A stretch of 64,000 nt of DNA from positions 2,463 to 66,462 of the forward strand of contig BDIU01000246.1 of NCBI GenBank assembly GCA_002118135.1, given 5' to 3'. The DNA is from Trebouxia sp. TZW2008. Lineage: Eukaryota; Chlorophyta; Trebouxiophyceae; Trebouxiales; Trebouxiaceae. The notes under the pieces were generated by a model. It was not told the origin of the DNA, ran no database searches, and saw only the letters and a program-made list of their open reading frames with translations. This document shows positions 6,089 through 43,919 of this stretch, piece after piece. The position numbers were made by a program, and so were the translations under genes. Numbering within the stretch: position 1 is the first letter of the stretch; each line of letters opens with the position of its first letter.

Positions 6089-6460
6089 GAGCTGATAAGC
6101 TGAAAATGAGGCTGTGGACGGTTTTGATGCACCATATGGCCCCATGGCCAGTGCACTATAGCTGAGAGCAAATCGATCAGGTACAGCAGTCAATCAGAAC
6201 AGCAGAGGTCACTGTTGAGTTGATACGCCGGAAAAGCATGCAAGGAGGCCGTGGGAGGGCAATGGCTCCATGACCAGTGCAATATAGCTTAGGGCAAATT
6301 GACCAAACACGGCAAGCAATCAGAACAGCAGAGATCAATGTTGAGCTGATACGTTAAAAAAGCATGCAATGCGGGCACAGGCGCTTTGATGGCACCATTG
6401 CAATACAGCGCTGAGCGAAATGATCAGATATGGTGAATCATCAGAAAAGCAGAGATCAAG
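6089..6460. repeat. Tandem repeat, three copies of a ~126-bp unit
   Basis: Copies begin at 6089, 6217 and 6343 with gagctgata or gagttgata. Each contains gcatgcaa (copies 2 and 3), a ccagtgcaatatagc-type block, and aatcagaacagcagagatca. Copy identity is roughly 75-85 percent by eye. A further shorter duplication (ctgaacaaa..cactgaagcccaaacct) occurs twice at about 6463 and 6513. From 6540 to 7033 nothing else is recognised. Confidence 0.8.
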
Positions 6461-7033: not shown

Positions 7034-10000
7034 TCACTTTTTCTCGTGAGACTGGCTAGTAGATGCTGCCAAAACAGCACTTTCTGCCCACTGATTGTAG
7101 TTGGCAGTGGTGCCATCCAGGATTGGCTGTGCCTCTGGGAACAGATCTACCATGGCCTTGAACATGGGGGTGCCAACAATGTTGAAGAAGCCCATCTGGG
7201 AGCGGGTCATGCCCCCTTGCAGGCTGCGGTCCATCAGGGGACTCACTGCCATCCCACACGCCTTCTCCTTGTCACCCTGCACTCAATCACCATCATGGGT
7301 CCTGATCAATGATTGCATGCAGTGCACATGCGCTGAAGCGGTAGTGCTCGTTACATTGAAAATTCACCCTGGAGCAAGACAGTTTCTGAAGCTGTGTACA
7401 CCACAGGTTAGGTCATGTACAGGCAGTACGCGCTAAGCAGATAACATGTGCAACAGTGCTATGGTGCCAGATTGAACAGGAGTACCACTCTGAATGGAAC
7501 ACAGCTCCAGAAGCTGTTTACAGCAAATTCTCTTTGTGACGGCTGCTTTGGTTACTGAGAAATATGTCTATACATCAAGTTGTCCTTACTCAGAGGGACC
7601 ACTGCAGTCTGAGTGCAGTGATTGCTAACCAATGGTGACGTCCTTACACTACGATTGTCCTTGTATCAAGTGTCCTTACAACAGAATTTACTGTACATCA
7701 TGTGTGAAGAACAGTGCTGTGCTCCAGAGTATCATGGAAGCAGCAACATGCTGCTACAATCAATGCTGCTATCCTAACTTGCCATTTTCTGTCATGCATG
7801 CAGAAGTCATGGCTTGTTGCATAAGCAGGCATGACAGAACAGCATACTTGACGGAAGAACTCTTCTTCTAGCTGATAGGCCCAGCGCTTGTGGGTCTCAG
7901 GGGCTGCTGCCAAATGCCCTATGTCTGCGCACTTCAGCACCATCTGCACACACAAGCACAATCTGTTGTCCAGACAACTGATGGCAAGAGTATCAGACTT
8001 GCTCTTCTCAATTGAGTAATGTGATGTTGATGACTGTTGGTAAGAATGCTTTTCATTGACCAATTTGAGCAGAGACAGAGGATTATTGGGCTAATCCACC
8101 CACCTCATCCCTCATGATCAGGGTTTGAGACCAAAGAACAAACACCTGCAACGGTGATCAGTACAGTCATCAAATTGCTGAGAACTGAGTCAGGAGGTGC
8201 ACAACCAAAAGAGCATGTTGGTACGCATCAGCCAGTGACGCCATGCCCAATCTGCCAACCGGCAATCTCATGTCACAAAAGTTATGTGTCGAGGGACTGC
8301 TGTCTATAACAAATGGACGATCAATCATCCTTCTTTCGTCAACCAGGAGAATGCAGACAGTGATGAAGAAGATGAGTCCAAACTGGTTCACCAGGGTTTT
8401 GTCCTGAGGCTTGATGCCCTCTAAGTCAGGCTTGACGGACTCTTTGTGAGCGGCATTGGCATGCACAGATACAAGTGTGATTGTGCAAAATGTCATCTGG
8501 CCTGGTGTCAAGTTTTGTCCTTAGGCTTGGCACCCTCTCAGTCAGGCTTGGCAGACTGGCATGCACAAAGACAAGTATCATTGTGCAAAATGTCATCTGA
8601 CCTGGTGTACTAAAGTCTTGTCCTCAGGCTTGATGCTCTCCCAATCAGGGCCAGCAGCATCACCAAGTTGCGCTGACCCTGGCATACAGCTTGTCACAGG
8701 AGCCTTCTTGAAGGTAGCCTAAGCAGACAACAGCACAGCAAAGTGTGAGAGCAAAGTGTCCTGATGAATGTGAGTGTGAGAGCAAAGTGTCCTGATGAAT
8801 GTGACTGTAAGCGTGCTAAGGTAGCATGGCAGTGGCTTAGCAAGTATGCGAAGAGCGCATCAATTGGTGCAAGCGAACAGCTCTAATGAGTGTGGTGGTG
8901 AGCTTGATGCTATGTATTAAAGAGCCCAATGTTGTTCTGGCTCTTGTACCTGATACGTAACTACAATAACCAAGGGAGGCTATGTGCAAATGTGGTGCCT
9001 GGACACAGTAGTGCAGAACTCTGGCTGTCTTACCTGGAACCTAGATACAATGTCAAAGTGCTTCTTCATGTCTGTGCCCAACACCATGCTGATGTTGGTG
9101 CTGCGGTATTGCCTGAAGCTCTCAGACCGTATGAATGCCATCTGCACACAATTGTCTTTCGTCAAAATCTGCCATCTGCTTATACGGCAGCTCAGCCAGG
9201 TCAGGCAATTCCATGCTGCATGCAGCACATCAGGTGACACCACTGTTGACAAGTGCTGCATCAAGGAAGCAAAATTCTCAGACCGCATGAACGCCATCTG
9301 CACACCACTGTCTTTGGTGAAAATCTGTTATCTGCTTATACTGCGGCTTAGCCAGGTCAGGTCAGGTCAGGTGATGCTGCATGCAGCACAGCAGATCACA
9401 TTACTGCAGTAACACCTTCTGCATCAACGAATTCAGACAGATCCCCTCTGACAGCTGGGCAGGGGAGATGACCACAACAGTTGTATATGCCAATCAGTCT
9501 GCTCAAGATGACTCATGATGAACTGCCAGTCGACAATGAAGTAGAGGAGGAACAGACTACAGAGGTCATGCTGTGTGAGTAAGCTGCCTACTTCAGAGAC
9601 AGCTGTAGGCAGACCGCAAAGCACACACATCACAAATGCAGACTGGAGGTACAAACTCCCAAGCTTCCTTCTATTTATGCTAGCACTACACTCTCAAGTG
9701 TATAACTCACATAGGCTATGCACTCTGAAGGGATGCTTAGGAGGCTGTAGCCAGCCTACAGCTGCATGCACATCAGCAGAGCATAAGGCTGGCAAGGGAA
9801 GAGAGGAGGATTGACCGGCAAGTAGGCAAACTCTGGGTTGTCGCGCGGCACTTTAATGGCGGCTGCAAGGTGGTGATTCTCCAGCGGTGAGATATCGTTG
9901 TACAGCACGGCAATGGGGTGCTGGGTCTTGACTAGGAAGTCGTTGTTCAAGCCCCCGTGCTCGAAGTCATGGAAGAGCGCTGAAATGTAGGCAGACAGGT

Positions 10001-13000
10001 GCTGCACTCTGGTCAGAGCTTTGCTCTTCATGATCCCGCCATGACACAGCAGCATATGAGTCATCTGCACAACTGCCGCTACATGGATGCTGCGGCAACA
10101 CACATGATGTGGTCAGAGCATTGCTTCTCATGATGCCGCTTTGACACAGCAGCATGTGGGTCATCTGCACGACTGCTGCCACATGGATGCTGCAGCAGCA
10201 CACATGATGTGGTCAAAGCATTGCTGTTCATGACGCCGCCATGATTCAGCAGCATGTGGGTCATCTGCACGACTGCTGCCACATGGATGCTGCAGCAACA
10301 TACATGACGTGGTGAAAGCATTGCTGTTTATGATGCCGCTGTGATACAGCAGCATGTGGGTCATCTGTACGACTGCCGCCACATGGATGCTGCAGCAACA
10401 CACGTGATGTGGTCAAAGCATTGCGGTTCATGATGCCGCCATGACACAGCAGCATGTGGGTCATCTGGCACCCCTGCCATTGCATGGATGCTGCATCAAC
10501 ACACATAACACACATGATGTGACCAAAATATTGCTGTTCATGATGCCGCCATGACATAGCAGCATGTGGGTCATCTGCACCACTGCCGCCACATGGATGC
10601 TGCAGCAACACGCAGGACATGGTCAAAGCGTTGCTGTTCATGGTGCTTGTGACGTGACCCGCAATAGGGCGTCCTGTCTCATCACCTGACCTGCAATCAA
10701 TGTACTCTGGATTTCATGACCTTGCATCAGGATGATGTGCTGCATACTATGCTGTAATGCGATGTATTGTGATGTGATTGAATGTGACGCCATGTAATGT
10801 AGCATGACACAGCGACACGTAATGTACTGTAAGCATCTACCTGTTGTGGTAGGGATTCTCCTTGACATAGCCACTCTCGATGCGCTGACAAAAAGCCCAC
10901 AGATGTGCAGTGTGTAGCCCAAAATGCTGACTGAGGCCAGCAACTCTGCAGAAGTGGAATGTCAGCAGGGACAACGTGGTGCCTGGCGTTGCTTCTGCAA
11001 ACCCAAAGATGTCAAACTGCCAGTTGTTCTCTGCATCCTGCAGCAGGCAAAAGAATCGTGTAGAATGGTACAAGCAGGGACACAGTCGTGCTTGGCGTCG
11101 CTTCTGCAAACCCAAATATGTCAAACTGCCATTTGTTCTCTGCATCCTGCAGCAGGCAAAGCAATCTTGTAGGAGCAGTACACAAGCAGGGCCAAAGTGG
11201 TGCCTGGTGTGGCCTTTGCAAACCCAAAGATGTCAAACTGCAAGTTGTTCTGAAATTCAAAGCTGAGTGTATCCTGCGGAATCATTGACAACCTTGATGC
11301 ACTAAAATTCAGCGTTTTAGCTCAGTGCAATGAGACTGGCACAATACTTGCAGTTGCAATACCCTTCTTCTTGCTCCGGATCACTAGCATTGTATGATGA
11401 CAACAATTATCATTATGCATTCCAGCAAATGTGCTAGGTGTGTGTGGCCGAAGTCCTAGCATTGTATGGTGACAGGCTACAGGCACAAGCTGATGGTTGT
11501 CACAAGTTGCAGCCGAACAGCATGTCAAGTGCATATTGACCACCGTCTGGATTGACTGATGCCCAGAAGAGGCAACCCAGGCATGCAGCTGGTTCACATC
11601 ACAATGGGAGCTGAAAGAGGCTGACCAGGAGCCAGCGCTCAATGTCAGTCGAGAGGCATGGAGGCACAAAGCCTTCAACTGATCCCATATTTGCAAAGCG
11701 CTTGTCCATCCAGTAAGGTTGATAATCCTTCATGGAAACTGAGTTGAGCCTAGTCATCACTGGACATATCTTGACATCTGCTGGCGTCTTGACAGAGCCC
11801 TACAATGTACATATCAGCAAGTTTTGTATCAACTTGTCTACAGTGTGATCAGTCAAAAGTAAAAATGAACCCTCAATCTTTTCAGCCTCTTCACAAAACC
11901 CTTCAGTGTACATACAAGCTTGGAAATGCAGTGTGCTCACTACACTGTCATCATGCATGCAGAAATGAAAGTCAACCTCCTAGGCCCAATCACAGAGCCC
12001 TGCATTGATTATACCAGCTTAGAAGTGCAGCGTTTGCGTCGCAGTGTTGTCAACCATTTCAAGAAGTAAATACCTGTTGGCCTTTTTACAAAGTCCTGCG
12101 ATGTGCATAACAGCTTGAAACTGCAGGCTGTTTGTCACAAAATCATCAAACAACAGAAGTGTCGGCAGGAATGTTGTTTGAGTAGCACAGGACTGCACTT
12201 CAAGCTTCACCAGATGATTATTACAGAATGTCATGATGTTGTGTAAAAAGGTAACAACAGCAATCAACAACAGGGCGTGCGATGCAAACTTTCTGGACGT
12301 CGCTGGGGCACACAATCAACATCGCATTGCATGATGATTGGGGGTCCTGACTTCTGATAAGCGTATTCAAGGCAGTTCAAGCAAGGCAACAGCACCTACA
12401 GCAGTTGAGTCAGATCGGGCAAGCACACCTGTAGCAGTTGTAGCATGGATCTACCAACTTCGGAGTCCATGCGCTGAACTCTCAACAGCTGCTTCTCCAG
12501 AGCTACAGGCTGCCTCAAGTTGATGCCAGACTCACTCAGGATGATGAACAGGTCCATAGCTGTCGCCACTTGCGGCACATGACCCTACAGGACGTCTTCA
12601 ACTCATCAGCACCGATCACAATCAAGCCGTAGACAGCTGAAAAGCTTTGAAAATGCATCTGCTGACTAGCACTCATGCCAGCAGAGAGACAACAGCCTGT
12701 GAAGGGCGCTTGTGTGACTCACATGCATATGTATGCCAGACTCTTGATCTTTAGTGCCCTGGCGAGACCAGGCAGGCCCAGAGTGCAGTTGACTCTGGTT
12801 GTTGCAACCACTGCACAGCAGCATTATATGCACAGAGCAAGGTACAAGCCCACCGCAACAATGTCCTTCAGGAAGCTGAGGGTCTTCTCAACCGGGGTTT
12901 CAGAGTCAAAATCTGAGCAGCGCTTGTGGGGCTTGTCACGCAGGATGACTTGCAGGCGATGTGCTAGCTTGTCTGCCTCTTGTTGCAGCTTCTGCTGCTG

Positions 13001-16000
13001 CTCATGCATGATGGTGGAATCCCGCTCCATGGTTTCGTTTTGCCTGCATGTAGTCAGAGTCAGTGCTGTGTGTCCTCGTCACAAAGTTGCATGATGACTT
13101 GCAGCTGATGTGCTAGCTTGTCGGCCTCATAATGCAGCTTCTGCTGCTGCTCATGCATGATTGTGGAGTCCCGCTCCATGGCTTGAATTTGCCTGCGTCA
13201 TGTGAGTGCTGGTGTTACTCAATATGATCACAAAGTCACATGATGAGTTGTGACCATTGTGCAAGCTTGTCTGCCTGTTGTTGCAGCTTCTGCTGCTACT
13301 CATGCATGATGGCGGAATCCTGCTTCAAGGCTTGATTTTGCCTGCGTTACCTGGAACTCGTGGTCCAAAATTGTAGAGCCATCATGTAATATGAGAGTCA
13401 TTGCCACTTGTTAAAATCACCAAGTTGCAGCGCATGTGAACAGCGCACAGGCTAGACTGCATCCTTGCTGTGGTTGCTTGCATGCAGATGGGCACTGCTG
13501 CGTTGGTGTCTGACCTCAATGGTTGAACCAATGTCATGTGCTGTTGCCATGAGGCAGAGCACGCCCTTTGCCTTTACTGCTTGAACAGAATCATCTTTAA
13601 CCAGCAATGATGTTTGGATTCAGTGGTTGAGCTGCTTGCAGTGTGCTGCTGTGGTGAGGGCTGTCAACAGGCTTAAGGTGCTAGCAATCAACAAGGTTGT
13701 CCAGTACAAGAAAAGGTATACCTTTCAAGGGCGTCTTGGCGGGCAGTGAGTTGAAGCTCGAGGTGCTTCTGCTGTGTGATGTTGTACCGCTGCACCAGCA
13801 CTGCAGGACCAGCATCCACTGGATCCTGCAGCAGTACGCTTGACATTGTTAAGTGTGCAACTGCATGCGTCTGAAGTCTTCAATGTGCTAGCAAACTTAC
13901 GTGACACATGGTGACTTCCTGGTGCGTCTGCCTTTCATGCCAGACTACTAGGCAAACTGTGTGGCAGAAATTTACTTTTGTGCTGGTGTGCTGGTGGCCT
14001 GCTGGTGGCAAAGGAAGCCTTGGGCATTTGTGCATTATAGAGCCTTGATCATCTAATCATGCAGAGACATATGGGTCACTGTAGACAGCGCATTGATCAG
14101 GATGTCTGGTCACTAGGCCAAGAATCGTGAACAACAGTCTCTAAATCTGCTGAAGGCACTTTGCCTACAACAAACTCTCCCAACATATTTGACAAGCATG
14201 CCCCAATACTCAGCAGCCCTGTGACTTTGTGCAGGGACTCACAACCATAGGCCACATCTCAATCATTGACCATTTGGTGGAGCCGTCTTTCTTGCTCTTG
14301 TGGGGCTGAGAGTGGCGGTGGCACTCCAGCTGTAGGATGAAGACTGCATGTATGGCTTCATCATAGGCGCTCTGTGCCTCTCCCTTGCCACCTGACCCAC
14401 ACATAGAATGTAAGTTGGACACAAAGAGTCTGGCAACAAAATTGCATGGAGACAGGAACACTGCAGTTGTGCCTTCATTGTAAACGCTCTGTGCCACCTG
14501 AGCCACACAAGGAGCGTGACAGAAAATCATTGGATGCAGCTTGACACGCAGTTACGTTGCACATCACCTGCCACTTGAATCATACTGCTTAGCAGTGATC
14601 TGGGGAATGCGGTGGTAAGCAGCCTTGCATAACAGGGCACACGTCAAGCGGTCATTCATTGATGTTACTAGGTGTGAGACCAGCCGGGACCCTTCAAAAT
14701 GTTGCTGTCAGTATTACTTGATGACGGTGCGGCGTCACAGGCGAAAGCAAGCTGTACTTTAAGAAAAAGTACACTGACGGTGTGAGCTACTGTACCTGGA
14801 TAGATGCCTTCGTCGAACAGAGTCTTGAGCGTCAACGTCTTGCCGCCTGACTGCCCTGCAACACAGCGGAGAGAAAGAGCTTGGTTTGACCAGTTCTGGC
14901 ATGTAAAGTAGCAGCCCATCCATGCCTCAAATTTCATCTGTATCAGTCACTACACATTGACAGCCTTGAAGAGCCACTCTTGATGCATCATGAGCATTCC
15001 AAATCTCATGACACAATTTTTTGTGAACTCACACATTGCTGCACAACTGCATGTCTGCATAAGCAAGGGGCATGAGCAAATTCTGTGCTCTGTTGCTCAA
15101 CAACTTGCTTGCTTGCTCTGTGCTTGACACGCACCTGATGATGTCTGCCGGAAAGCTTCCACCGCAGCTGCATTGGCATTCAACAGAACCCCGTCTTGCC
15201 GAAACATGAAGCTGTGCAAGGGAGTTTTGTCGTGGATGGCCCCAACACGCATGTCTGTCATTGGCGTTTGCAAGTCTTGAATGTGCATGACAGCACTCTC
15301 AACCTTTGTTGGTGAGGTCTGTACCTTGATTGCCTGCAGCAAGCCTAACAGATTGTGCAGTGACGAATGCAACTGCAGCATTGTGATGCAACTGCACCGT
15401 TGTCATGCAATTGCAGCGTTGTGATGCAAATACAGCGCTGTCATGCAATGGCAGCTTTGTGATGCAACTGCACCATGTGGCATGTCATGCAATGCCAGTG
15501 CTGTGCTGCACTGCAGTGCTGCGGTGCTTGCAACAGGGCATGATCGACAGACTACAGCAGGTGAATGCAGCGCAACTGCTGTCATGTGCAGGCAAACTTA
15601 TCACTTCAGCCTTGTCACTGGTGCGTGTGCCTTGAAATTCGCAGACCATTGACCGCAGGCCAAGTACAGCACTTCACCCGTGATGGCATGTGAAGATGCT
15701 TATCCCGAAGGAAGGTGTATGCAGCTTCTGACACTGCACCTTACTGGTCACGCGGCAACTGAAGTCAGGCCCATCTGGCTTGATATTCTGATACAGGGGC
15801 CACAGGATGCTCCGCATGTCTGAACATGATTGCTGGTTGTGCTGGCCCTGGTCAATCAGCGTGAAAGTTGCACCTTGTTTCAAATGTTGGCAAGTATGCC
15901 AGCCACTGCTGTCATCTTCACGTTTTTGAAATTATGATGCATGTGGCACAAGACACATGTGTGTTGCTTGTGCGCATGAGGCGCCAGTGACAATCTGAGG

Positions 16001-17045: not shown

Positions 17046-20000
17046 ATGGCGGGTGAGCTACGAGCTTTTGTCGGATCACTTGACTCTCAGAGCAGCGTCT
17101 GTGCCAGACTTGCGTTCAGGAACCCTCTGATCAAGAATCACTGTACTTTATAGCAAGTTCTGACCTATGCCTGTCTTGACCAGGCGAATCTGCGCTCGGA
17201 GGTGTTGTCGTGGGCGACGAGGACGACGATGATGCGATCTGGACTATGCGGGAGTTGCGGCTCTTGAACGAACTACAACAGCCTGTTTCGGTGATCGTCT
17301 CCGGAGTGTATGAGGATCCGCACAGGTCAAACAGCTGCTCAAGTTCACCACACCTCAGAACACAGCTATGCAGCCCAATGTAACGGCCTGTCAGCTTGTT
17401 GTGACATTGCTGCTGCTGGCTGCAGTGTTGATGGCTTGCAAGACTTTGCTCGGGTAGTTTTTCAAAATACAGTTTGCAAACAGCGCTATGGTTTACCTAG
17501 ACCCAGAAGTGAATTTCTGGAAATCGTTAAAGCAACCCCTCAAGAGGAGAAGCGCAAAAAGCGGGAATGGCTCATGAAAACAACTCAGGTACCTGCCTGG
17601 TCTTGCTTTTGTCGTGTTACGGGTGCAACACAAGATCAAGACAGCTTGCTGCTGTCCACAGCTAATCTGCTGGACACAGATAACCCTCTGCCGTCGTTTC
17701 TGCATGGTCAACTCTTTCTCTACATGTTGTGACTTGTGTCTTTGTTGATTAGGGCAGCCACACACATCAGTCATGGTTGAACATGAAGGACGTACTGCAC
17801 CCGCTGTATCAAGGAGTCAAGCCAGATTCGCCCAACTTTGTCTGTCGAGTCAACAGCAAGGTAAGAGTCAATCACACAGTGTCTGCAGCAGCAACATCCC
17901 ACGTGCTGCATGATGCATGTATGCTATGTGACGCAAACATGATTTCTCTGATCAGCGGCAGCTGAGACAACAGCCACAATGACAGATAAACATGCAGATG
18001 GCAGACAGGCAGCTAGACAGACAGACAGGCAGACAGGCAGAAAGATAGACAGACAGCATCCTGCGGCTCACCTGATGTCATGTTGCATGTGTTCCCATGA
18101 CTTGTCACCTAGCTTCCACCTTCATCTAGCTTCCACCTTCATCTAGCTTCCACCTGTTGTGCTTGCATCACCAGAACTCTTTTTTGCAGGCTATCAGAGT
18201 CCAGACCACAACAACTCAAGTTGAGATTGCGCTCATGCATATTCAAGAGCTGGAGACATGCATGGCGGATCTGCGTGTTGGCGCAATGCATCGCAGGAGC
18301 CCATTGCACACCTTCATGTTCAGCGCTGATGGCAGCCTTCTCAATGGCAATGTGTCTGCTTTGGAGGCGTTTCAGCAGACCCATATAGGTAAACATGACA
18401 TATGTCATGAAATGACCCACTTAAAAAATCTGGATCTCCATGACTTACATGTTGCAATGGTACGCACATATGCACAGAAGTTGCGCATGAAGGGTCAGAA
18501 GCCCCTGCTCTTTGAAGCCTTTGCCAAGCACTCACATGGTCATCAGGTTGACAATCCTTGTTGGCTCTTGACTTGATACCTTTATGTGCAACGCAGCGCT
18601 GTGCCAGGCTCTGTCAGTGCTTCTGGCATGATCTCACCTGAGCTGCGTGCCTGTATTGTTGGGCTGCAGAGCTGCTGAGTATAAACGCTTGTCCTGCAGG
18701 GCATGCAAACGGTGAGGGACTAACGCTCAGGACGCTGTTTGATGAAGGCGTCTATCCAGGTACAAAGCCTCACTCTTTTGTACTCTGACAGACTTCCTTC
18801 TGAGGCAAGCTGTTGTAGCCAGCGTATCAGATGTTGTTGTATGCTTACAATTCCTCAGGCCAGGACGACTTTTTGCTCCTTGCATGGTGACGGTGGCAAT
18901 GCCATGCACACGCAAAATTCTTTGTCTAGCAGCTGCACATCACCCAGCATGCCCTATCATGCTCAATTGCAAACAGGGTGTACTAGCTGATGCAATCTGA
19001 TGGCGCGGGTCACATTTTGTTGTTGGAAACCTATTCCTTTGATTTCAGGAGGTGCAGAAGAGGCACAGAATGCATACGATGAGGCAATGCATGCTGTCTT
19101 TGGCTTGCAGCTGGAGTGCCACCGCCACACACAGCCCCACAAGAGCAAGAAGGACGGCTCCACCAAATGGTCAATGATTGAAATGTGGCCCATGCTTGTG
19201 AGTCTATGCTTGCTGCATTGTGTCAAACCCAAACAGTGAACAGCATAGTGCAGGCTTCACTGGCTTGATAGTTCATGAGCTGCCATAGTGTTGTCGATGG
19301 GATGCTGGTGCCAGCATCACACTGACAATCGCGCAGAGCTTGCCTGGCTCACAGACATATGCCACATCTGGCAGTATGTTGTGCGTCTGCCCTATCGTCA
19401 ATTATGCTCGTCAGGTGCCTACTGATCTCACACGTCACCAGCCCTACAGCACAAAGCTTCCACACATCCTACAGCAGGGTAACTGCAAGTGCTGAAGACG
19501 TTGCTGCAACCTTTGCGGAACCAGGCGGGTACATTGGAAAACGCCCATGACTCACATGTCTTGTGCTAATTTGGCAGATACAGCAATGATGCAAGGATGC
19601 GCAACAACAAATGCTGGACAGCCCACATGCCTGCGTGTGCAGGACCCGGTGGATGCGAGCCCTGCAGTGCTGGTGAAGCGGTACAACATCACCCAGCAGA
19701 AGCACCTTGAGCTTCAACTCACTGCTCACCAAGACGCCCTCCAAAGGTGAATACACCCTGACTCATGGTTGCAGTGTTGGATCCAAACATGGCCATTGAT
19801 GGTGTGTTGCTGGGTATGCAACGCTGCGGCATCTGAATACTTGGCATAGCGACAACATGTTTGCAGGACCTTGGTTAAGTCGCTTTGCAGCAGCGCAGGA
19901 CACGCTGTACGTCACTGCACAGACAAGCATTGCTTCTGCGTTTGCGGGCAAGGATGCAGTGTGGCATGGCTGCAGACTCCGTCAAGAACTGAAGCAGGAC

Positions 20001-23000
20001 TCCCTGGCCATGCATGAGCAGCTGCTCAGATTGCAGCACTCCCTAAACCCGGCGTGATTCTGCATTGATGGCGCAGTAAGGACTGTGCACTGTCTGCAGG
20101 CACAATCAAGGACTGGAGCAGGACTCCCTGACCATGCATGAGCAGCTGCTCAGATTGCAGCACTCCATACATAAGGCTTGCTTCTGCACTGATGGCGCAG
20201 TAAGGATTGTGCACTGTCTGCAGGCATAATCAAGAACTGGAGCAGGACTCGTTGACCATGCATGAGCAGCAGATCAGATTGCAGCAGGAAGCAGAAGGGC
20301 TGGCGCAGCGCTTGGAAGTCATCCTGCATGACAAGTTCCAGCACCGCCAGCAAGGCTTTGACTCTGACACCCCCATAGACAAGACCCTCAACTTCCTGCA
20401 AGGGATCATTGCGGTAAGTGAGCGTCTGGATTGCTTCCCACCTAGCTGTACTTCCTACACTGTCAACGCACCCAGACACAAGTCTATTCCCGATGCAGCA
20501 TGTGTGGATGACTGCCAGCAACTGTCTAGGTCCCCATTGGCCAGTGCGATAGTGCGTGATGTCTTGCTTCACCGCGTTGGCACATCACTGTGTCAATGAT
20601 GCATAAAAGTGCAGTTGCACAGAGATGTTCTGGAAGCTCAGAACCTGTCCATGTTTGCAACGAGCAAAGCCAAAGCATCAGTAAGTCATACTTCGTTGCA
20701 GGGGCAAACGCCGCAAGTACAGATGGCTCTGGACCTGTTCAACATCCTGAACGAGTCTGACATCAACTTGAGGCAGCCTGTGGCTTTAGAAAAGCAGCTG
20801 CTGAAGGACCAGCGCATGGACTCAGATGTTGGCAAGTCCATGCTCCAGCTTTTGCAGGTGCGCTTGTCTGATCTGACATTCTGAAAGACTTTGTTGCCAA
20901 GTCCCATTCCGCTGGTCTTGCCCAGAATGTGAAGCACAGCCTGCATGGCATCCTTTGTGAGCTCTTGCATAAACTTTGGCAGAACATGATGACAAGCCCT
21001 TGACTCAGCTTTTGTGTTGCAGGGCAGCTTCAAGAAAGATGCTTCTGAGCACAGTAGCTTCAAGAAGGATGTCACAGACAACCCCGCAGACACAGTGGGG
21101 ACTGGAAACAGTGAGGTGCTGTCTCCGAGGGAAGCTAAGCCCTACTGGATGGACAGCCGCTTCCAGGGCAAAGAAGGCGATGTGTTTGTGCCCCCAGGCC
21201 TCACAACTGACATTGAGCGCTGGCTCCTGGTAAGGCTTATCTTGCTTTTGCTTTGCATCTGGCTCTGCATGTCTGGACAGCTGATTCCAAGGCAAACATG
21301 ATGCTGTGCTTGTGCTACATGCTTTGCTACATGGGTCAATCAGTGTCTGATGGCCTGCCGTGTGGTGTCTTGCCAATTTTGTTTGCATGACGGTGATCAA
21401 GAAATGACTGTGCTGACTTCCCTCTCGCCCCAGACTGCACCCCTCCTGACCCCAATCCCCATTTCATGACGCCTGAAACACAACTTGGCTTGTATGCAAT
21501 CAGCACCACAGCATGCAGGTGTACAGCTTTACCTCTACATGCCCATAACAAAAGGAGTGTCAACAGAGCTGGCAAGCTCAGGACAACATGTGCGCTCTAT
21601 GCTGCAGGATGCCGAGAACAACTGGCAGTTTGACATCTTTGGATTTGCGGAGGCTACACAGGGCTTGACCCTATCCCTGCTGACTTTCCACTTCTACCGG
21701 ATTGCGGGTCACATTCAGCACTTCAGTCTTGATGCTGCCAAGCTGTGGCGCTACTTGCAGCGCATTGAGAGTGGCTATGTGAAAGAGAACCCCTACCACA
21801 ACAGGCATGTTGTCGCTGTCACCTTGCAAGCTGTAACACTGATGCGTTGCCAATGTTGCTATGCCCTGCAGTGATGGCTTCCATCAAAGAGCTTAAGCGC
21901 AGTGTGCATGCCACATGCTCAGATGCATGCTACATTCCACATAGAAGTATGCATCTGCACTAGATAAGTGTGTGACAATGACTGGTCATCTCCAGCTGGC
22001 ACAATGTGTGCACTTCTTGGGAGCATAGCTCTTAGATACTCGTCCACGGCGTTGAACTTTCCAAGACCAATTGAGGATGTCCTCAGCTGACATGCCGACA
22101 CCCACTGACTGTGCTCGTGCTGTCTTTTGCTGACTGTCATCAGCCATCAACAGCATCGCCAAAGCATTGCTGAGCCTGATGTTTGTAGTGCTGGTCAATC
22201 AACAGCTAATCAACCTCTGTGTCAATACGCCTTGACCTCTGTGCTGGACGCTCACTGCATCATGTGTGTTGTTGTAGCATCCACGTGGCGGCAGTCGTGC
22301 AGATGACCCACATGCTGCTGTGTCATGGCAGCATCATGAAGAGCAATGCTCTGACCACATCATGTGTGTTGCTGCAGCATCCATGTGGCGTCAGTGGTGC
22401 AGATGACCCACATGCTGCTGTGTCATGGCGGCATCATGCAGAGTAATGCTCTGACCAGAGTGCAGCACCTCTCTGCCTACTGGTCCTCTGCAGTGCATGA
22501 CTACGAGCATGGCGGCCTGAACAATGACTTTTTGATCAAGACTGCTCACCCGATTGCCATTGTGTACAATGACATCTCGCCATTGGAGAACCACCATCTG
22601 GCGGCTTCTGTGAAGATCATGCATGATTTCCCAGACTGCTGCTATTTGCCGGTCAGCCCTCAGCTCTTGCTATTGTAATCCTGCAAAGTCAGCAAATGTG
22701 CATGTTGATTGAGGCTTCACAACAAGGCCTCTGCGCACATGCTTTGCATAACCTGCGCAGGATTGTGCTTGCTGAACCAGGTTGCATGGTGAAGCTTTGC
22801 TTGTACTTCTGCCACATATAGCAGGACATGTGCCACATGATATGTGTAGAATTCACATCGCTGGATCCCTTGCCCCCTCCCCTGCTGTTTTCAAAAGTGG
22901 ATGATGCATGCCCACTATGGAGAACAGAGTGTGATATGCATAGTCTGCTGACTAGTTTACTTTCACAGCACACATTTTGACCTCACTGCATGTGCAACAC

Positions 23001-25107: not shown

Positions 25108-25372
25108 AGATATTGTAGCTGGTAGAGATGGTAGCGGGGGTGGCAGCATGGCGCCCAGAAGGGTTCTGTAGTGATGTTGCAATTGGTCTACAATACAACT
25201 AATGGGCAGAAGCTGCTGTGCGGTCAGCAGAAAAGGGTCCACGGTGACGTTGCAATTTGTAGGGATGGTACTGGTGATGGCAGCATGAAGCGCTTAGAAG
25301 ATTTCACAGTGATACTGCAATTGGTTGAGATGGTAGTGGTGATGGTGGTGATGATGGCAGCATGAGGCGCTT
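25050..25372 (+). repeat. Duplication of the PDE-B terminal coding edge into the 3' flank
   Basis: The last codons (YNQWAEAA) and following bases at about 25057-25110 recur 137 bp later at about 25195-25245 (tacaactaatgggcagaagc), followed by degenerate ggtgatggcagcatga repeats up to 25372. The copy is non-coding. Confidence 0.75.
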
Positions 25373-29847: not shown

Positions 29848-32800
29848 TCATCCTGAGTGATCAGTCAATGCAGCCATAACAGAGGTGAACTCTGCTTTTG
29901 TCAATGGCTGTATGTTGGACAAAGCGATGTTGGCCAGAACATGTATCTTCGACTTGTGACCAACCAGAGTAGCTACAATGCCAGGTGTGCTCCTCGCAAT
30001 TTGCAGCAACTTAGCCGCCATGCCACTCACATTTTGCAGCTCTGGCACCGTCTCTAGTTTGCTCTGCAACAGGGCAGACCATAAATTAGCTGCCTGACAT
30101 GACTGCATGTCGTCTGAGCAGCTGCAGCTGCAGCCAGTAAGCAGCTAGTAAAGCTTAGGCTCTGCTGCAAAGCAGAAAGGCAGTAATGCATGCTTGAGTC
30201 AAGCACCATTGCTTGCTGACATTGCCTGCACAACACAGCCTCAAACATAGCAGGGAGAATAATGGTAGTAGTGCACAAAAAAAGCCATTGTCCTGCTCAA
30301 GCCAGGGAATGCATCAGCATCAGCATCAGCATTAGCATCAGCATCAGCATCAGCAACATGTGCTCAACTACAACAGTCAAGCCTGCACCAAGCAGACTCT
30401 GCAGGGATGTGTACTCTATGGGGATGTGTACTATAACAGGCATCTGATGTCTCACAAGCAAAGGTGGTGCTCGTAGTGGTACAGCTGACCTGAAGGGCTG
30501 ACTGCTGAAGCAAGGCCGCTTCTTGCAAGGGCCCTGAAGCAAAGACGCCAACCTGCAATCGCCCTGCTGCCTCTGTGGTGCTGCCCATGACCTCTGTCAT
30601 GCATCGCAAACATAAGCTAATGAATCACAGCAGCATAAAACGAATTCGAGCTTATGTCTCAGTCAAAGAGCGATACTACAGTCACTCCAGCTTGCAGTTG
30701 CCCTGCTGCCTATGTAGTGCTGCCCATTGCCTCTGTCGTGCATGGCAAACAGAGCAGCAAGAACACAGCAGCATCAAGGGCGTTTGAGCTGATTGAGCAT
30801 GTCACCAAGAGAGGCGCTGCATACCACTAGTCCAATGCCAAGTCAGTAATGCTGCCATCTTGCACACGTCACTGCTGGGCGATTGTTACTTCAACTGACA
30901 GGCTACAATGACAGGCTGTGTGTGTGCTTGTGTATGCAGGGATCCAACGGTGCCTGCATTGTTGATCAGCACAAGCAGAGGCAAGGCATTCAGCAGTCTG
31001 CAGGTGATCAACAAACCACAAAACGGTTAGGCATTACATATGGCATGCAAGATGCTGCATGCAGGGGTTCATCCTAGACATGCATCAGCATTGTTGGGTG
31101 CTGCTGACCTGATGTCGTCCCCTCCGGCACAGACATTGCAGGAGGCATAGGCTGCCACTTTTCTCGCCAAGCCTCCAGCATGGCAACATTGATAGGTAGC
31201 TGAATGTATCTGCAATTATGCACACTGCTCAGCCCATATTTTGACACTGCCGAAGATGGTGAGAGTGTAGGCCTGCCAAACAACCTGTTACTTCTCATGA
31301 TGTTTCGGCATCAATCTGGCACTCCCTGAATACACTGCTGTGTTGACATATGCAGCGTGAACTTTGCAAGCTGATTCGCATGATTCATTCGCGCCCGTGA
31401 CCAAAAGGCAGTATCTTTCTTGAGCAGTGCACCTTTGTGTCAAAAATGTGAGAATGACTGCAACAGCAGCAAGCACCCGCCTCTTCTGCCGTCATAGCAA
31501 CACTGCCATCACAGAGAGCTGAAGCCTCCAAAGAGAGAAGGCCTAGCACTTTTGCTACATTTCTGCGCTGAAAGCCACAACCTGTAGAAACAATTATCCT
31601 CAATGTTTCTGAGCTGACTCTGAGAAAAGCTCTGAGAAACATAAGCGGCTTGTGAACTGCACAAAATTTTTGACAAACGCACATTACAGCAAATGTGCCA
31701 TGTGTATGTAACCTAAAACTTGTCTCGCCATGGGCTTGTTTGAGCTGTGAAGATCACCTGAACCCATGGTCAAGGCCTCCAACTTGTTGCGCAAGCTGCA
31801 CCACGCTCAGCAGTGTCAGGTAGCCTGCTGCATCAGGGGCTTTCCTGAAACAGTCCCAGGTGGCGAGGCCATATGCCCTGATCTGCCCTTTTGCACGGGC
31901 CCTCTCTGCCCATGTGAATGCTTCCTTCAGGCGCTGCATGAAGGCCTGAGGACCCAGTAGTGATAGCTGCATTTCTGCTGGGTTATGCAGGTACAGCAGG
32001 TCTACCTGCGTCAAATGATCATAACAAGGCTCAATCCCAGGCTCATCTCCTTTGCATCAATACAGCAGTGCAAATGTAGCTTTGGCGCATCAAGACATTG
32101 CTGAAGTGCCAGCGCTACATGTGAAGTTTGTGGATGTAGCATAAGTCACCACTGCTGCTTCAGATAGACACAGGCTCTCATACTTTGTGCAGGTGCATAG
32201 ATGCATAAGTCTGATTTCATATGCTGACATGGGACGCTGGATGCACAGATCTAATTCAAGTCTGGTTCATGCAGTGTTGACATGCTCCTAGTATGCCTGC
32301 AGTACAGGACTTGTATGCAGAAAGATGTACACTTGGTGCAATAATTTGCGCTGACTATTTTCTGCAGATGGCAAATTGCAAAACTCTGCTTCCACGCAGC
32401 GAATGCAGCAAAATGCACCTACTGTATTGACCCTTAGGTTCTGCAGGCTGAGGGTCTGGGACGCCTCCAGGCAAGCGGGTTGCAGACAAAAGACATGCAC
32501 AAATCTGGTACCATGCAATGAGATGCACCTACTGTATCAACCCTGAGGTTCTGCAGGCTGAGGGCCAGGGATGCCTCCAGGCAAGCGGGGTGCAGGCAGT
32601 GGCTACCGGCGACCACATCTTCTTCCTTCACCTTGCCAGCCTTCAACAACTGCAGAAATGCAGATTCTTGTTTTGAAGCCTTGCTGAGAGGTGACACAAT
32701 GTTTAGAAGCGTTTCTGCCACCCCTGACAGTGGCTGCCTCCCACCATGTCATCCTCCTTCACCTTGCCAGCCTTCAGCAGCTGCAGCAGTAAAAGATTTT

Positions 32801-34640
32801 GGTTTCAAGGCCTTGCTGAGAGATGACACGATGTTTGAAAATTCTTCTGCCATCCCTGACAGTGGCTGCCAGCCACGACGTCATCCTCCTTCACCTTGCC
32901 AGCCTTCAGCAGCTGCAGCAGTACAAGATTTTGGTTTCAAGGCCTTGCTGAGAGATGACATGATGTTTGAGAGTGCTTCTGTCATCCCTGACAGTGGCTG
33001 CCAGCCACCACCTCATCCTCCTTCACTTTGCCAGCCTGCACCAGCTGCAGCAGTGCACAGCTTGAATCAGCACAACACATGGTTCCAACTGGAACTCAAC
33101 TCAACTCAACTCAATTCAAGTCAACCCAATTCAACTCAGCTCAACAACAGTCAAGCTGCTTCGCAACGGCTGCATTACATTAGGTGAGCAAGCGAGACCC
33201 ATGCTAGATAGCACTCTGTAGCTGCAGCCTCGTTGAAGGCATGCTGTCAGCATCTTGTTTCAGTGCAGAAGCAGTACAACCGATATCCGCACCTGTGTCT
33301 TCACGTCCTCTTGCAGAAAGCCAGCCTTAGTAGAGATGAACACCATCTCACGCGTGAAGCCCAGCTGCTGACGCAGAGCTGTCAGTGCATAGCCAATGGC
33401 CTTTTCCCCTCTGCCTCCTCGGTAGTTGTGGGCGGTATCAATCACATTCCAGCCCCTGCTGGCAACCACTTGATCACTGAATGCATGTCTATCAAAGTAT
33501 ATACCAGTTTCTTGGAGTGACGGTTGATGAGGAATGGTTGATTCTATTGAGCCATATGGCTGAGGTGCTGGAGAATGAGAAATGGTTTGAGCAGTGTGAA
33601 TAGTGCAAGCAACTTCACCAAGACGACGCTTACGGCTTAGCAGGTGAACATCAGTGAAGAAGTAGACAGACAGATGCTGATCACTGCCGAGCAGTAAATG
33701 GCTACCTCAAATAACAAGCTGCACACATGCGTCAAGTTCTGCAGCATTTTCTGTACAGGTACAGGCCTGCAAGCTCAATGCATATAAATCTTGAGTGCAC
33801 ACATGAATACATGTATGATACATGGAGGTACTGCAGCCAGGCAGTTTGATGAGGCCATAGGCGCTTACTGCTGCACGCTGGTCATGACAGAAGAGGCACT
33901 TTTCCTCTGTTGCTGCAAGGAGTCATAGAAACTCACTGTTGCACGCTAGTGATGACAGCAGAGGCAACCATCTCATCTGTTGCTGCATCTTCGGCCCCAA
34001 GGTAGGTACCCACCCCCACAGAGCTTAGGGTCAGCCATGGGTCCCCTCGCATGCTGTGCCCTGGCAGCATGCTGCCCATAGATGCATCACGCTTGAAGTG
34101 TCTGTCTGCTTTCAGCCGTTGCACTCCAGGCAACCTGGCGTAGCAAGCACAGGTGAGCAGCATCACAGCAACAGCCAATGTCAGTGCCTGTCAGGATGCC
34201 ACCAGCTTGAGCATCAGGTAGCTGCAGATTGTCGTGTCATTATTCGGGGTCTTGTTCTGTTTCAGGTCGAGCTGAGCTGTATATGCAGAGGCTGTGATGG
34301 GTCACCTTGTGGCATACTGCTTTGTGTGGTATTCAGTAGCAAAGCCTTGCCAGGGAGAAGTATGCTTGTCATAGCCCACGCATGATGGAAGTCGGCACGA
34401 TTTGGCGCAGTGTGATCGCATATAGAACGGGTTGGCAAGACACTCGCCATTCTTTTGCCAAGCTGCACAGCGTATTTCTGTGTCTTCACAGCTTGTCGAG
34501 GCGACTAGCGGTGCTTCATTGTATCCGATGAAAGCTTGCGAACGCTCAACAGCTATGCCAGGTGCAGCGAAACTCAAGGTCAGCAACGCGACCGTCAAAG
34601 GCACAAGGTGTGAATGATCAGGTCGCCAAGCTCGCTGCAT
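29848..34640 (-). CDS. Secretory ShKT-domain / aldo-keto reductase fusion protein
   Basis: Eight exons: 34640-34306, 34134-33937, 33476-33293, 32649-32533, 32005-31758, 31209-31109, 30593-30490, 30063-29848; 500 aa, stop TGA, all phases matched. An N-terminal signal peptide or anchor (VPLTVALLTLSFAAPGIA) precedes a six-cysteine ShKT domain (Cys 51, 58, 67, 78, 82, 87; NGECLANPFYMRSHC). The aldo/keto reductase barrel runs from about 150 to the end: VGVGTYLGAED, NVIDTAHNYRGG (Asp191, Tyr196), FISTKAG (Lys228), VDLLYLHN (His285), IARSTPGIVATLVG. The D-Y-K-H tetrad is complete, so an NAD(P)H-dependent carbonyl or aldehyde reductase is expected, entering the secretory route. ShKT domains are otherwise often attached to prolyl hydroxylases or peptidases. 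Introns carry decayed copies of exons 32649 and 30593. Confidence 0.88.
30311..30357. repeat. (GCATCA)n hexanucleotide run
   Basis: About eight near-perfect copies lie in an intron of the reductase gene. Confidence 0.95.
30540..30762 (-). repeat. Echo of a reductase exon edge (~139-bp spacing)
   Basis: The start of the exon at 30593 (acceptor cacgacag/atgacag, then GSTTEAAGRL) recurs at about 30690-30735 as a decayed copy with a stop (tag) in frame. Confidence 0.75.
32405..33060 (-). repeat. Four-copy 132-bp array of a reductase exon edge plus echo of its 3' edge
   Basis: The exon at 32649-32533 (LLKAGKVKEEDVVAGSH) has its 5' half and upstream intron repeated at anchors 32771, 32903 and 33035 (from 32640; spacing 131, 132, 132 bp). 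Each copy keeps a ctgcag acceptor and LLKAGKVKEDD-type coding. The 3' half with its gtaggt donor is repeated once, 110 bp downstream (32527 and 32417), still reading LSLQNLRVNTV. The unit is a multiple of three, but stops occur in the reductase frame. Confidence 0.92.
33095..33155. repeat. (CAACT)n-type simple repeat
   Basis: Runs of aactcaactcaa interspersed with related words lie in an intron of the reductase gene. Confidence 0.85.
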
Positions 34641-37733: not shown

Positions 37734-38344
37734 GCAGCAATTGCGACCATTGCTGGAAAATGCTATTGCTGACAATCTGGGTTTTCCGACCAGAAGATCT
37801 TGGATGGGATTTTGTTGCAGCAGTCTTGTGAGCAAACTTTACTGAATGCAAAGCCTGATCTGCCCATTTGACGCGTTTGTGTGACGCGCTGAGGCGCAAG
37901 GACCAATTGCAATTTTGTCAAACGATACGTCCGCCTAAGCTACAGCAGTTCTCGCCATCTAATCATAATGTCATTGATTGCAAGTATGCCTGAGGAGCAT
38001 TCCCATCTCAAAAATTGCCTCATTGTCGCCACATGTATGATCAACCTCTTGCGACAGGTCTTCCTGCAGAAAAAGCTTAAGTGCAAACTATTTTTGACAG
38101 CGTATTTGATTTAGCCTGCTCTCAATCATGCACTGCTGCTGAGATAAGTCGATGACCTTGTAGGAGCCATTATGTAAGAAGAAGAAGGTGCCCTGAGTCG
38201 CTTGGTTACGTAAAAGGCATAAAATTTGGATTGCAAGACGAGAGCTAGTGCAACTGCAGCGACATAAGCGACGCCTTTATCGTCCCTGACAGGTGCAGCT
38301 GGAGGCCCGCAGCGAGTGTCGGTCAGTACAGGAATTGCGCCCAC
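37734..38344. other. Intergenic between RTF2 and amidohydrolase
   Basis: This 611-bp gap lies between tandem genes. Nothing is recognised beyond expected 3' UTR and promoter sequence. Confidence 0.5.
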
Positions 38345-41300: not shown

Positions 41301-43919
41301 AGCACTAAGTAGAACACTCAAGCACACACATTGAGTCGCACAATAGTGGCTCGACATCAATGCTGTTGTGCTGAAGGAAGAGACGTTGCATCAGTGGCGC
41401 TGCACTCCAACTTCCTTATTGCAGGCAGATCGGGTGGAATTGGAGCAATGCATGGACTGCTCACGGCTGTCAATTGACTACAGCTCTGTCAAAGTCTTGA
41501 TTTGCAGGCAGATGGGCTGGAATAGGAGCAATGCATGGATTGCTCACGGTTGCCAACTGACTCCAAACGATGTTGATGCCTTTGCCAAATGGCAAGTTGG
41601 TGTGGCGCATTGCCCCTGTTCCAACTCTAGACTAGCAGATGGCATTTGCCCAGTAAGCCCCATTTTATGTCCTGAGTGAGAACATAGTGACACCGCATGA
41701 ATGCCAGATTCATGCTAGTGTGGCATCAGTAATGACAAACCACGCTGGCTTGTTTCGGCTGTCATAGCATGGTCACTGCTACTGACAAGCATTCTGTTAA
41801 CAAGCACGGACGATAAGAGTTGCATCGTGATGAGACTGCACAACAGCAGCTTCAGGGTAGATGCATTGATGTTCCATGACGCCCTCAGAGGATGCATGTC
41901 ATCACTGCATGCTGCATAGTGGTCTTTTGTCTTCCGCAAGGAGGGACCTGTTCTTTCCTGCACTTTGTAGATGCTTTTCAAAGGGGCAAAAGCTGTCTTG
42001 CACAGTACTTTGTGTTTATAAAATCCAAGACTGCTGTCCTTGCATGCAAAACCCTAGTCTGCAACCATGCTTGCTTTATATTGCCAAATGTCAAAATGAC
42101 TGTCGTTGGGTGCTTGTCTGACATTAGGTTCGCAACATCCTTGATGCAAAAGGCAAAGTGGGATTGGGAGTGGATGGTAGCTCCAGCAATGAGACTGTGA
42201 ACCTACTGGATGACTGCCGCATTGCCACCTACCTTCAACGCAGTGGCGGCAACCCCAAAGGTGACCAACTTTATGCTGAGTGAGTTGTCAAGTGTCTCGT
42301 CATCAGACGGAATGCTGTCTGATCTGAAAGACTGAGATTGTCAACTCACAGGTTACCTGCTGATTGCCACATACTCTCAGCGCAGCAGCGGCAATCCTCA
42401 AAATGACGAAATCACTGCTGAAAGTGATTTTACAAGTGTCTGGTCATCAGATGGCATGGCGTCTGGTGCAAAGTGCTGAGACCACGAATCCACTGGATGG
42501 TGGTTGCAGTGCCACCTGCCTTCAACGCAGTGACAGCAACCCCAAATGAGATCAATGTTGCCTGCACTCTTCAGGCTGTCATGTCATACATTGTCTTGCT
42601 GCCTGTTGCATTCAAGCGCTTAAATTGCCTGTTCAACAGTCATCACCACCATTAGTGCTGTTCAGGGCTGAGTGCAAGGGAAGCTTTGACGATGGCAACT
42701 CAGGGCAGTGCCAGGAATCTGGGCCGGGATGACATTGGCATGATTGCTCCTGGCATGGCAGCAGACATTGTGGCCTGGCGTACAGACACCCTCGCCTTTG
42801 CAGGTCACCCATGCAATGCCTGTTTCTGAGCTGGGCAGGTCATGCAGAGGACATCAGCTTGCATAGCAATGCAGCAATTGCTGTTTACTGGATCTATGTT
42901 ATGTCTGACATGACTGCATACAGCAATGCAGTGGCTTGATGTTAACATTGTAGCCTGGCGTACAGGCATCCTTGCTTTTGCAGGTCAGTCATGAAACGTT
43001 TGCTGCCTCTAAGCTTTGTACAGTATGCAAGTGATATCAACTGACATAGCAATGCAAAGGGCACTGTACTAGACTGAGCTTGTGTTGTGTCTCACATGAC
43101 TGGCTGCAGCAACGCAGCAGTTGATGTATACTTGGCCTATCTGCCAACTGACTGCAATCACATCAACTGCAGGCACTCAACATGACTTGGTGGAAGCCCT
43201 TGTCTTCACAAGACCTGGGCATGTGGACCTCAACATCATCAATGGCAGGATCATTGTTCAAGATGGCAAGATGCTGACAGTTGATGTGCCAGTGAGTCCT
43301 TACTCCATAGCAGCTATTGCACTCAGTAATAATAATGATAATAATCATTACATATTCCAGCATATACTGCTAGGTATGTGTGGCACAAGTCCTATCATAT
43401 GTAAACTTCAACATGCAAGCCATCTTAAACATTGCACCTGTACTTCAGAGTCTCCATTGTGGAGAGCATGGTGATTGCAGGGTTGCACTCTATGCAAATA
43501 TTTTATGCAAACACCTGCATGTTGACAAGGCTGCAGCAGTGCTTGTGTTCAGCCGCATGACTGTATGGCTGTGACACAAACATTGCAGAAAAATCGTGAG
43601 TTGTCAGAGCCTTGAGCTGCTACCTCAATCACTGATGTCACTTGCCCAGTCAAAGTCTGCCGGCTGAAGCTATCAGAGCTTTGCGATTTGTGCTCATGAC
43701 ACCATGGCAAGCCACAACTTGATTTTGCTTATGCATCAAACTACATTCGGCTTGTTACCTGCAATGCAGGAATTGCTGAAGAAGCACAATGCCAGGGCTG
43801 CAGAGCTGAGGGCTTTTACAAAAGGAGCTGACACGACTCAGAACCCAAATGATGCAGACATCATGATTGTCAACCCAGTACACAACTTTGGACACAGCAG
43901 ACATGCACAGCATTCATGA
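38345..43919 (+). CDS. Metal-dependent amidohydrolase, 8-oxoguanine deaminase / AtzB-TrzN-like
   Basis: Eleven exons: 38345-38704, 38824-38904, 39116-39261, 39651-39788, 40157-40280, 40918-40973, 41508-41652, 42128-42260, 42666-42803, 43173-43291, 43770-43919; 529 aa, stop TGA. After a ~65-residue N-terminal extension, the composite beta-sandwich starts ([14 protein letters not shown]), then the barrel with [12 protein letters not shown] (metal His 115-117), RFQPTR, LHTHVAE (His 276/278), NAWIAHG (His 315), [10 protein letters not shown] (Asp 366), [20 protein letters not shown] and GMAADIVAW. Members deaminate or dechlorinate purines or triazines. Two conserved segments differ: the usual APCSPFS is ALGAEFN, and the DHHY after GCTT is DDQY, so substrate is uncertain. 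Typical members have about 450 aa. The N-terminal extension may be a targeting peptide. Introns contain echoes of exons 41508, 42260 and 42803. Confidence 0.88.
40420..40690. repeat. ~68-bp tandem repeat, about four degenerate copies
   Basis: The block tgctgcaatgccaaa..ctttgtc(a/t)gtgca..ctcaa is repeated in an amidohydrolase intron. Confidence 0.75.
40698..40800. other. Short A+T-rich tract
   Basis: About 100 bp of almost pure A/T (aataaacaaacaaataaataaa and similar) stands out from the surrounding sequence. It directly follows the 68-bp repeats in an intron. Confidence 0.9.
41190..41300. repeat. 15-bp minisatellite containing palindrome aacatgtt
   Basis: About six copies of gaacatgttgtgagc (with small changes) lie in an amidohydrolase intron; each carries the self-complementary word aacatgtt. 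Confidence 0.85.
41415..41590 (+). repeat. Echo of an amidohydrolase exon edge (83-bp spacing)
   Basis: The acceptor and first ~75 nt of the exon at 41508 ([17 protein letters not shown]) are duplicated upstream from 41425, where the same frame reads [17 protein letters not shown] with the metal-binding His intact, then reaches a TGA. It still has a tgcag acceptor. Confidence 0.9.
42222..42550 (+). repeat. Three copies of an amidohydrolase exon 3' edge (~142-145 bp spacing)
   Basis: The coding tail ([13 protein letters not shown]) and donor at 42260 are followed by two decayed copies at about 42365 and 42510. Confidence 0.8.
42764..42990 (+). repeat. Echo of another amidohydrolase exon 3' edge (~180-bp spacing)
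   Basis: The segment encoding [14 protein letters not shown] with its donor gtca at 42764-42808 recurs at 42945-42988 with few changes (gcctggcgtaca, cttttgcaggtca), including a usable GT. Confidence 0.85.

Follow-up and report, generated by a model that had tools for sequence, protein, structure and literature searches.

Why should the introns of a green alga repeatedly contain copies of the edges of their own exons? The origin of intron sequence and intron length has long been debated, with transposons and drift being the usual answers. The question is raised here by a stretch of 64,000 nucleotides (G000:C237:2463-66462, hereinafter the window) from the genome of Trebouxia sp. TZW2008 (68.5 Mb, 527 contigs), in which exon boundaries were reported, in an initial annotation made from the letters alone, to be repeated in the adjacent introns of at least four genes. 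We confirm that these exon-edge echo arrays are real: short segments of DNA straddling exon borders have been duplicated repeatedly into the adjoining introns, where the copies decay as apparently unused echoes. For six Trebouxia lineages, genome sizes of 63-74 Mb and GC contents of 49.6-51% are given in the available text of a genomic study (PMC11523091).

Pfam searches with predicted, partly edited proteins identified class I phosphodiesterase (PDE), aldo/keto reductase and amidohydrolase, the genes named in the initial annotation, and the PDE-B protein has its best full-length matches, at 68% identity, among Trebouxia proteins. Arrays were detected by self-BLAST and TRF; comparison of the window with itself yielded 31 matches at offsets of 30-1000 bp, which were grouped into 19 arrays. 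Exon edges were predicted with a small gene-finding HMM trained on the window and positions 1-200000 of contig C244, from which the previously annotated edges were withheld; outside the Lon protease and PDE genes, all exon edges discussed below are gene-finder predictions. All 13 positions that had been named as duplicated exon edges lie within true tandem duplications, and 12 of them match predicted edges, 11 exactly (8602, 9141, 10089, 11037, 13043, 20224, 22378, 32649, 41508, 42260 and 42803) and one with a prediction of 32529 for 32533. At the remaining position, 30593, the repeat stands (30545-30793, 78%, offset 139) and the exon edge does not, the HMM ending the nearby exon at 30533. The pair at 27418 and 27681 is likewise a genuine repeat (27294-27489 and 27557-27750, 83%, offset 263), whose reading as a whole-exon duplication was not confirmed. 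The window includes the following arrays and duplications:

8396..8649, minus strand: PDE-A donor-side echo array at exon 8602-8718 (edge 8602, offset 116), with about two echoes in the downstream intron
9120..9431, minus strand: PDE-A acceptor-side duplication at exon 9034-9141 (edge 9141), with a unit and offset of 156 bp and two copies
10010..10646, minus strand: PDE-A acceptor-side array at exon 9816-10089 (edge 10089), with a unit of 100 bp (80 exon + 20 intron) in about six copies, five of them echoes
10964..11251, minus strand: PDE-A acceptor-side array at exon 10841-11037 (edge 11037), with a unit of 109 bp and two echoes
12940..13347, minus strand: PDE-A acceptor-side array at exon 12854-13043 (edge 13043), with a unit of 149 bp (about 104 exon + 45 intron) and two echoes
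19913..20286, plus strand: PDE-B acceptor-side array at exon 20224-20413, which is homologous to PDE-A exon 12854-13043, with a unit of 124 bp (63 exon + 61 intron) and two echoes
22258..22457, plus strand: PDE-B acceptor-side duplication at exon 22378-22651 (edge 22378), with a unit of 100 bp and one echo
25057..25325, plus strand: duplication extending from the last exon of PDE-B past its predicted end, which is a gene end and not a splice site (offset 137)
27294..27750, minus strand: duplication in an alanine-rich predicted gene (offset 263, 83%)
30545..30793, minus strand: two-copy repeat (offset 139, 78%)
32413..33057, minus strand: aldo/keto reductase array with offsets of 110 and 132, enclosing an exon predicted at 32529-32649 (32529-32640 after retuning of the gene finder)
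41419..41565, plus strand: amidohydrolase acceptor-side duplication at exon 41508-41599 (edge 41508), with a unit of 83 bp
42190..42555, plus strand: amidohydrolase donor-side echoes of exon 42153-42260 (edge 42260), at offsets 143 and 287
42765..43127, plus strand: amidohydrolase donor-side duplication at exon 42666-42803 (edge 42803), with a unit of 180 bp

In the PDE genes, one segment of a Trebouxia homologue has matches to several genomic copies, of which the full exon scores highest (matches above 24 bits); over the same residues, the true exon is matched over its length and the echoes over the duplicated edge only. The window also contains a 135-bp dispersed repeat, located in two different predicted genes (24104-24236 and 44442-44576, 85% identical), and, at 4430-4468 and 24764-24815, short repeats of the pentanucleotides TGTGC and TGCTG, which match one another.

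The Lon protease gene provides exons defined by a protein. The database protein P0049 (1018 residues; longest contig 3664 bases, source 'lgn') is a Lon protease which, in a spliced alignment restricted to GT/GC-AG introns, aligns to C244:140452-154676 in 16 exons with no mismatches over 1018 aa. We infer that its source is a transcript, because a contig of 3664 bases is too short to accommodate the 11.2 kb of introns. Exon edges carry 11 of the 12 arrays in this gene, compared to 4.5 (sd 1.5) after shifting, and none of 5000 joint shifts reached 11. A search with 80 nt of each exon end against each intron detected 34 echoes, all beside their own edge, with 21 copies of the upstream exon end and 13 copies of the downstream exon start; no echoes were found with the far ends of the flanking exons (0/19) or with other exons of the gene (0/338). 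Six copies of the end of exon 148678-148879 are present in the intron that follows it. Echoes are present in all seven Lon introns of at least 695 bp and in none of the eight of 441 bp or less, and their recognised exonic parts account for 20% of the intron bases. No echo sequence is included in P0049, which represents one isoform of this one gene. Intron 2 of the Lon gene aligns as GC-AG; about 11% of the donor sites in the trained gene finder (window and C244; L009-L028) are GC rather than GT, under a model that allowed GT and GC only.

The main sample consisted of the window and C244:1-200000, together 264 kb with 117 tandem arrays, whose placement was compared with local random shifts. Under a strict rule, an edge array is one that holds the edge of an exon protruding from the array; under a relaxed rule, edges within 5 bp of the end of a copy were also accepted and echo-like predicted exons were removed first (56 of 482 predicted exons were treated as echoes of a longer neighbour, and exons shorter than 20 nt were dropped). 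Under both rules, the outer boundaries of first and last exons were counted as edges, for observed and shifted arrays alike. The strict rule assigned 70 arrays to edges, against 36.2 (sd 4.7) after shifting, the others being intron-only (15 versus 25.7), within exons (1 versus 5.2), intergenic (3 versus 5.5) or of other placement (23 versus 24.0). Under the relaxed rule, duplications favour exon edges in 90 of the 117 arrays, against 46.6 (sd 5.2; largest of 200 shifts, 63), with 14 intron-only, 6 exon-enclosing, 3 intergenic, 3 other and 1 within an exon; tandem duplications are thus not equally frequent away from edges or in intergenic DNA, the outcome that the initial annotation had named as fatal to its reading. 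For the window alone, the strict excess is marginal (11 of 19 arrays versus 7.1 expected, P 0.057, with one of the 11, 25057-25325, at a gene end), and the relaxed rule places 13 of the 19 arrays on edges. One of the three intergenic arrays is a tandem duplication in the window at 6136-6459 (offset 126, 73%), outside predicted genes.

Beyond the window, echoes were seen on all six contigs examined (C237, C244, C441, C135, C40 and C72). Across all predicted genes, an adjacent echo was detected at 103 of 704 edges, whereas far-end controls gave 4 of 307 and random pairings 1 in just under 1500. For seven additional PDE loci (L001-L006, distributed over four other contigs, and L008 on C244 beyond 1-200000), the corresponding counts were 11/49 for adjacent echoes and 1/32 for the control. 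Echo frequency varies among genes beyond chance (chi-square 88, 24 degrees of freedom). Introns with donor-side echoes also carry acceptor-side echoes more often than expected (odds ratio 3.7). Intron length rises with the number of echoes, following 367 + 127 x detectable echoes (95% CI 106-153, r 0.48, 394 introns, with those below 50 bp, above 4000 bp or containing N excluded), and echoes are present in 12 of the 17 introns longer than 1 kb and in 1 of the 73 shorter than 150 bp. In line with the earlier proposal, edge duplication is associated with longer introns, at about 127 bp more intron per detectable echo, and it leaves pseudo-exons behind, the echoes being apparently unused.

The structure of the repeated unit could be classified at 82 edges: in 32 (class A), the exon and intron parts are both recognisable, in 41 (class B), the exonic part only, and 9 are intermediate. 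Class A arrays are plain head-to-tail tandem duplications with a median unit of 156 bp, and the exonic share of the unit (0.19-0.92 over the 32 edges) does not differ from uniform (KS P 0.16). Hence, the earlier suggestion of slippage or end-joining at splice-site-like words received no support: by the same test, the limits of the unit show no link to the splice word, and the copies are too diverged for breakpoint words or microhomology to be read. Most array copies are 8-30% divergent from one another, a few being closer, with differences as low as 2%, and at this divergence repeated assembly of one sequence is unlikely. A zone of age-graded growth received weak support only, the nearest echo being more alike in 27 and less alike in 15 of 43 cases, with a non-significant rank correlation.

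In class B (41 of the 82 edges), the likeness ends 0-24 bp past the splice site, and the exonic part is 74-98% alike. These edges first suggested exon-limited copying, for example, from mRNA, which we reject as a general account, because a clock simulation, in which the flanks of both copies drift and in the exonic part only the echo does, explains most of them. In this conservative test of 44 edges (38 of the 82 were too short), most class B edges are compatible with ageing; the observed pattern arose in fewer than 1% of simulations at 3 of the 44 edges, and in fewer than 5% at 6. Also against exon-limited copying, the flanks beyond the echoes seldom match the neighbouring exon (above the null 95% level in 3 of 33 cases in class B and 5 of 30 in class A); some of the predicted neighbouring exons may be echoes in their own right, which could account for the excess in class A. 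Patchy exchange or gene conversion between copies may have to be invoked as well; we conclude that tandem duplication has recurred and decay has been unequal, and that some conversion or exchange is likely. At C244 positions 105752, 116590, 84842 and 94572, likeness in the intronic portion of the unit exceeds what the exonic part predicts, a sign of patchy exchange.

The best explanation of the arrays, and in our judgement the probable one, is recurrent short tandem duplication (about 100-230 bp, median 160) across splice sites, masked by splicing. The nuclear genome would undergo such duplications frequently, and where the duplicated segment spans one splice site, only the copy attached to the exon body would remain exon, all others becoming intronic. 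Removal of the intronic copies by splicing would render the duplication nearly neutral. Part of the edge excess could result from geometry, from selection against duplications within exons and from pairs decaying more slowly when one of their copies is constrained; the remainder would reflect either preferential formation at edges or one-way retention, under which recombinational loss of an echo would pull its mutations into the exon, making growth easier than loss. End-joining of staggered breaks, which yields small tandem duplications in mammalian cells according to the available text of PMC8355091, is a candidate cause only. More tentatively, and as a possibility rather than the expected outcome, introns could grow mainly by self-templated accretion, with a process tied to splice sites copying exon edges outward, long introns being decayed ladders, and a one-way ratchet retaining the copies, given that loss by recombination would harm the exon.

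Two accounts of the edge excess beyond the masking of duplications by splicing have to be weighed. The first, a serious candidate that stops short of being probable, is that duplications form preferentially at exon edges, for instance, where co-transcriptional splicing or nucleosomes positioned on exons would lead to breaks or to stalled synthesis. The most alike arrays point this way: at identity of at least 88%, there are 19 edge, 2 exon-enclosing and 1 intron-only arrays, and when coverage of at least 0.7 of the period is also required, 7, 2 and 0, respectively. However, young arrays are few, some thresholds are non-significant (P 0.12-0.13 at coverage 0.9), and the limits of the units show no clustering with respect to the edge; the high edge share among the most alike arrays would fit an edge hotspot and retention alike.

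The PDE paralogues bear on the same question. The MHEQ exon carries a 149-bp unit in PDE-A and a different, 124-bp unit in PDE-B, and acceptor echoes accompany the exon coding HVASVVQMTHMLL in 5 of the 7 paralogues where it was located, at offsets 100, 100, 102, 182 and 226; this exon was, however, picked post hoc, and without PDE-A and PDE-B the count is 3 of 5. In L002, L003 and L005, the echoes are nearest their own exon (tree support of 94, 93 and only 29), which rules out, for these three loci, inheritance of the echoes from before the PDE duplications. Conversely, the five PDE-A echoes of the 100-bp array are nearer the PDE-B exon than their own, so that this array may be older than the split of the pair, or may have been exchanged between the two genes, rather than being independent. 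Duplication seems to recur at the same places in PDE genes. The class I phosphodiesterase family itself looks strongly expanded, with 62 exon-level Pfam matches on many contigs.

The second account, likewise a live possibility that we would not yet call probable, is that duplications form at random and edge arrays last longer: selection would anchor the exon copy, conversion would refresh the echoes, and recombinational loss would be selected against, as in a one-way ratchet. This would fit the three of 44 edges in the clock test where the exonic parts of echoes are too alike for their intron flanks, as well as the identity between echoes, 0.82 in exonic parts and 0.71 in flanks (unrelated flanks, 0.60), a comparison that is biased given that echoes are detected by exonic likeness. 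The scarcity of intron-only arrays (14/117) is also consistent with longer persistence at edges, whereas the presence of the edge bias already in the most alike arrays is harder to accommodate.

That nothing beyond ordinary random tandem duplication, geometry and detection is involved, with no special role for edges, is improbable. A neutral null has to include shelter by splicing and unequal decay, because exonic duplications are removed by selection, edge duplications are hidden by splicing, and pairs with one constrained copy remain recognisable longer. We simulated neutral placement with both, using echo-free introns, at least 10 nt on each side of the edge and unit lengths of 60-300 bp (2 of the 117 observed lengths fell outside this range and were left out). 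This model itself predicts a large edge share, 44-51% among edge and intron-only arrays, and the excess in the window alone is marginal, as noted. The observed share is 87% under the relaxed rule (90/104) and 82% under the strict rule (70/85), the one closest to that of the simulation, which disfavours purely neutral placement; the concentration of Lon arrays on exon edges argues in the same direction.

It is still less probable, indeed quite unlikely, that the echoes are alternative exons spliced in under some conditions. Among nearest echoes, 42 of 47 retain the acceptor AG, and many echoes are open (25 of the 34 in Lon; among the 82 nearest echoes, 49 are open, 27 frameshifted and 6 interrupted by a stop), as short sequences of about 30-150 nt. 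Nevertheless, the donor GT is kept in only 23 of the 34 nearest echoes of exons with a GT donor, most echoes are pieces rather than whole exons, and indels in their exonic parts mostly break the frame: 49 of 50 in nearest echoes, and 102 of 114 over all exon-echo pairs, a tally that involves some multiple counting (7 of 149 pairs with fewer than 25 aligned exonic nt were dropped), are not multiples of three. Tandemly duplicated alternative exons are coding copies that are spliced in, and the echoes did not prove to be such, on Lon evidence from one gene and one isoform and with the open share given above. The frame-breaking indels and the absence from P0049 disfavour a role as coding exons, and the echoes look non-coding.

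Changes polarised by codon position where two or more echoes are available (90 of 103 edges, those lacking a unique open frame being dropped) are distributed 18:10:61 in the exon lineage and 185:164:299 in the echo lineages. Exons are under protein constraint, and echoes are largely without it. Third positions account for 46% of echo-lineage changes and 51% of exon-echo differences; together with the open frames, this excess is somewhat more coding-like than pure decay and compatible with weak constraint. The residual excess may have its source in serial duplication during exon evolution. Finally, although many introns do contain repeated sequence, an introner, another mobile element or an assembly artefact is hardly credible, as the repeats are private to each exon (unrelated matches, 0/338 in Lon and 1 in just under 1500 overall), the copies are mostly 8-30% apart, and P0049 matches the genome exactly.

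Internal gene duplication is a known class of mutation: Gao and Lynch are said to have described, in 2009, frequent intragenic duplication of exon and intron pieces, with edge-biased echo ladders reportedly not among their subjects. Tandem genomic duplication across an intron-exon boundary is known from a single case, a potato RdRp gene (PMC4974935, available text), where, as here, a unit comprising the end of an intron and the start of an exon was duplicated in tandem. In potato, however, that one event created a new intron and extra exon sequence, whereas in Trebouxia the exon is unchanged, the copies are skipped, and many edges are affected. The view that boundary duplication is not a described system is, accordingly, too strong; its density and edge bias are what we did not find in print.

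The Rogers model, as set out in the available text of PMC3443670, explains the gain of introns through the tandem duplication of exon segments containing AGGT, and it resembles our case in that splicing renders the duplication harmless. In Trebouxia, by contrast, an existing intron grows and no new one arises: instead of an exonic AG|GT supplying both sites of a new intron, the class A unit holds and straddles an existing splice site, the rest of it being intronic. Introners, reported chiefly from green algae and other fast-evolving lineages (PMC9860276, available text), likewise place repeated sequence within introns. Unlike introners, which form near-identical families over many genes, the Trebouxia echoes share no family, and each copies its own neighbouring exon. 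Fill-in by CST/Pol alpha-primase followed by end joining also produces short tandem duplications at staggered breaks; introns are not mentioned in the available text of that work (0 occurrences; PMC8355091).

We found no description of dense, edge-biased echo ladders in the literature searched, a body that lacked most subscription papers. In the available main texts on Trebouxia or lichenization that were checked by term, the word 'tandem' is absent and 'intron' is confined to the title of a reference and to a mapping option. What we observe is a known kind of mutation in unusual density and pattern. Many long introns are partly traceable to their own exons, and the varied divergence of the copies could make the birth, decay and loss of intron DNA directly measurable. 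The arrays also form a natural experiment on splice-site choice by the spliceosome when sites are duplicated. For annotation, they carry a warning that a gene finder may take echoes for exons, as our trained gene finder did in the Lon, PDE-A and P450 predictions.
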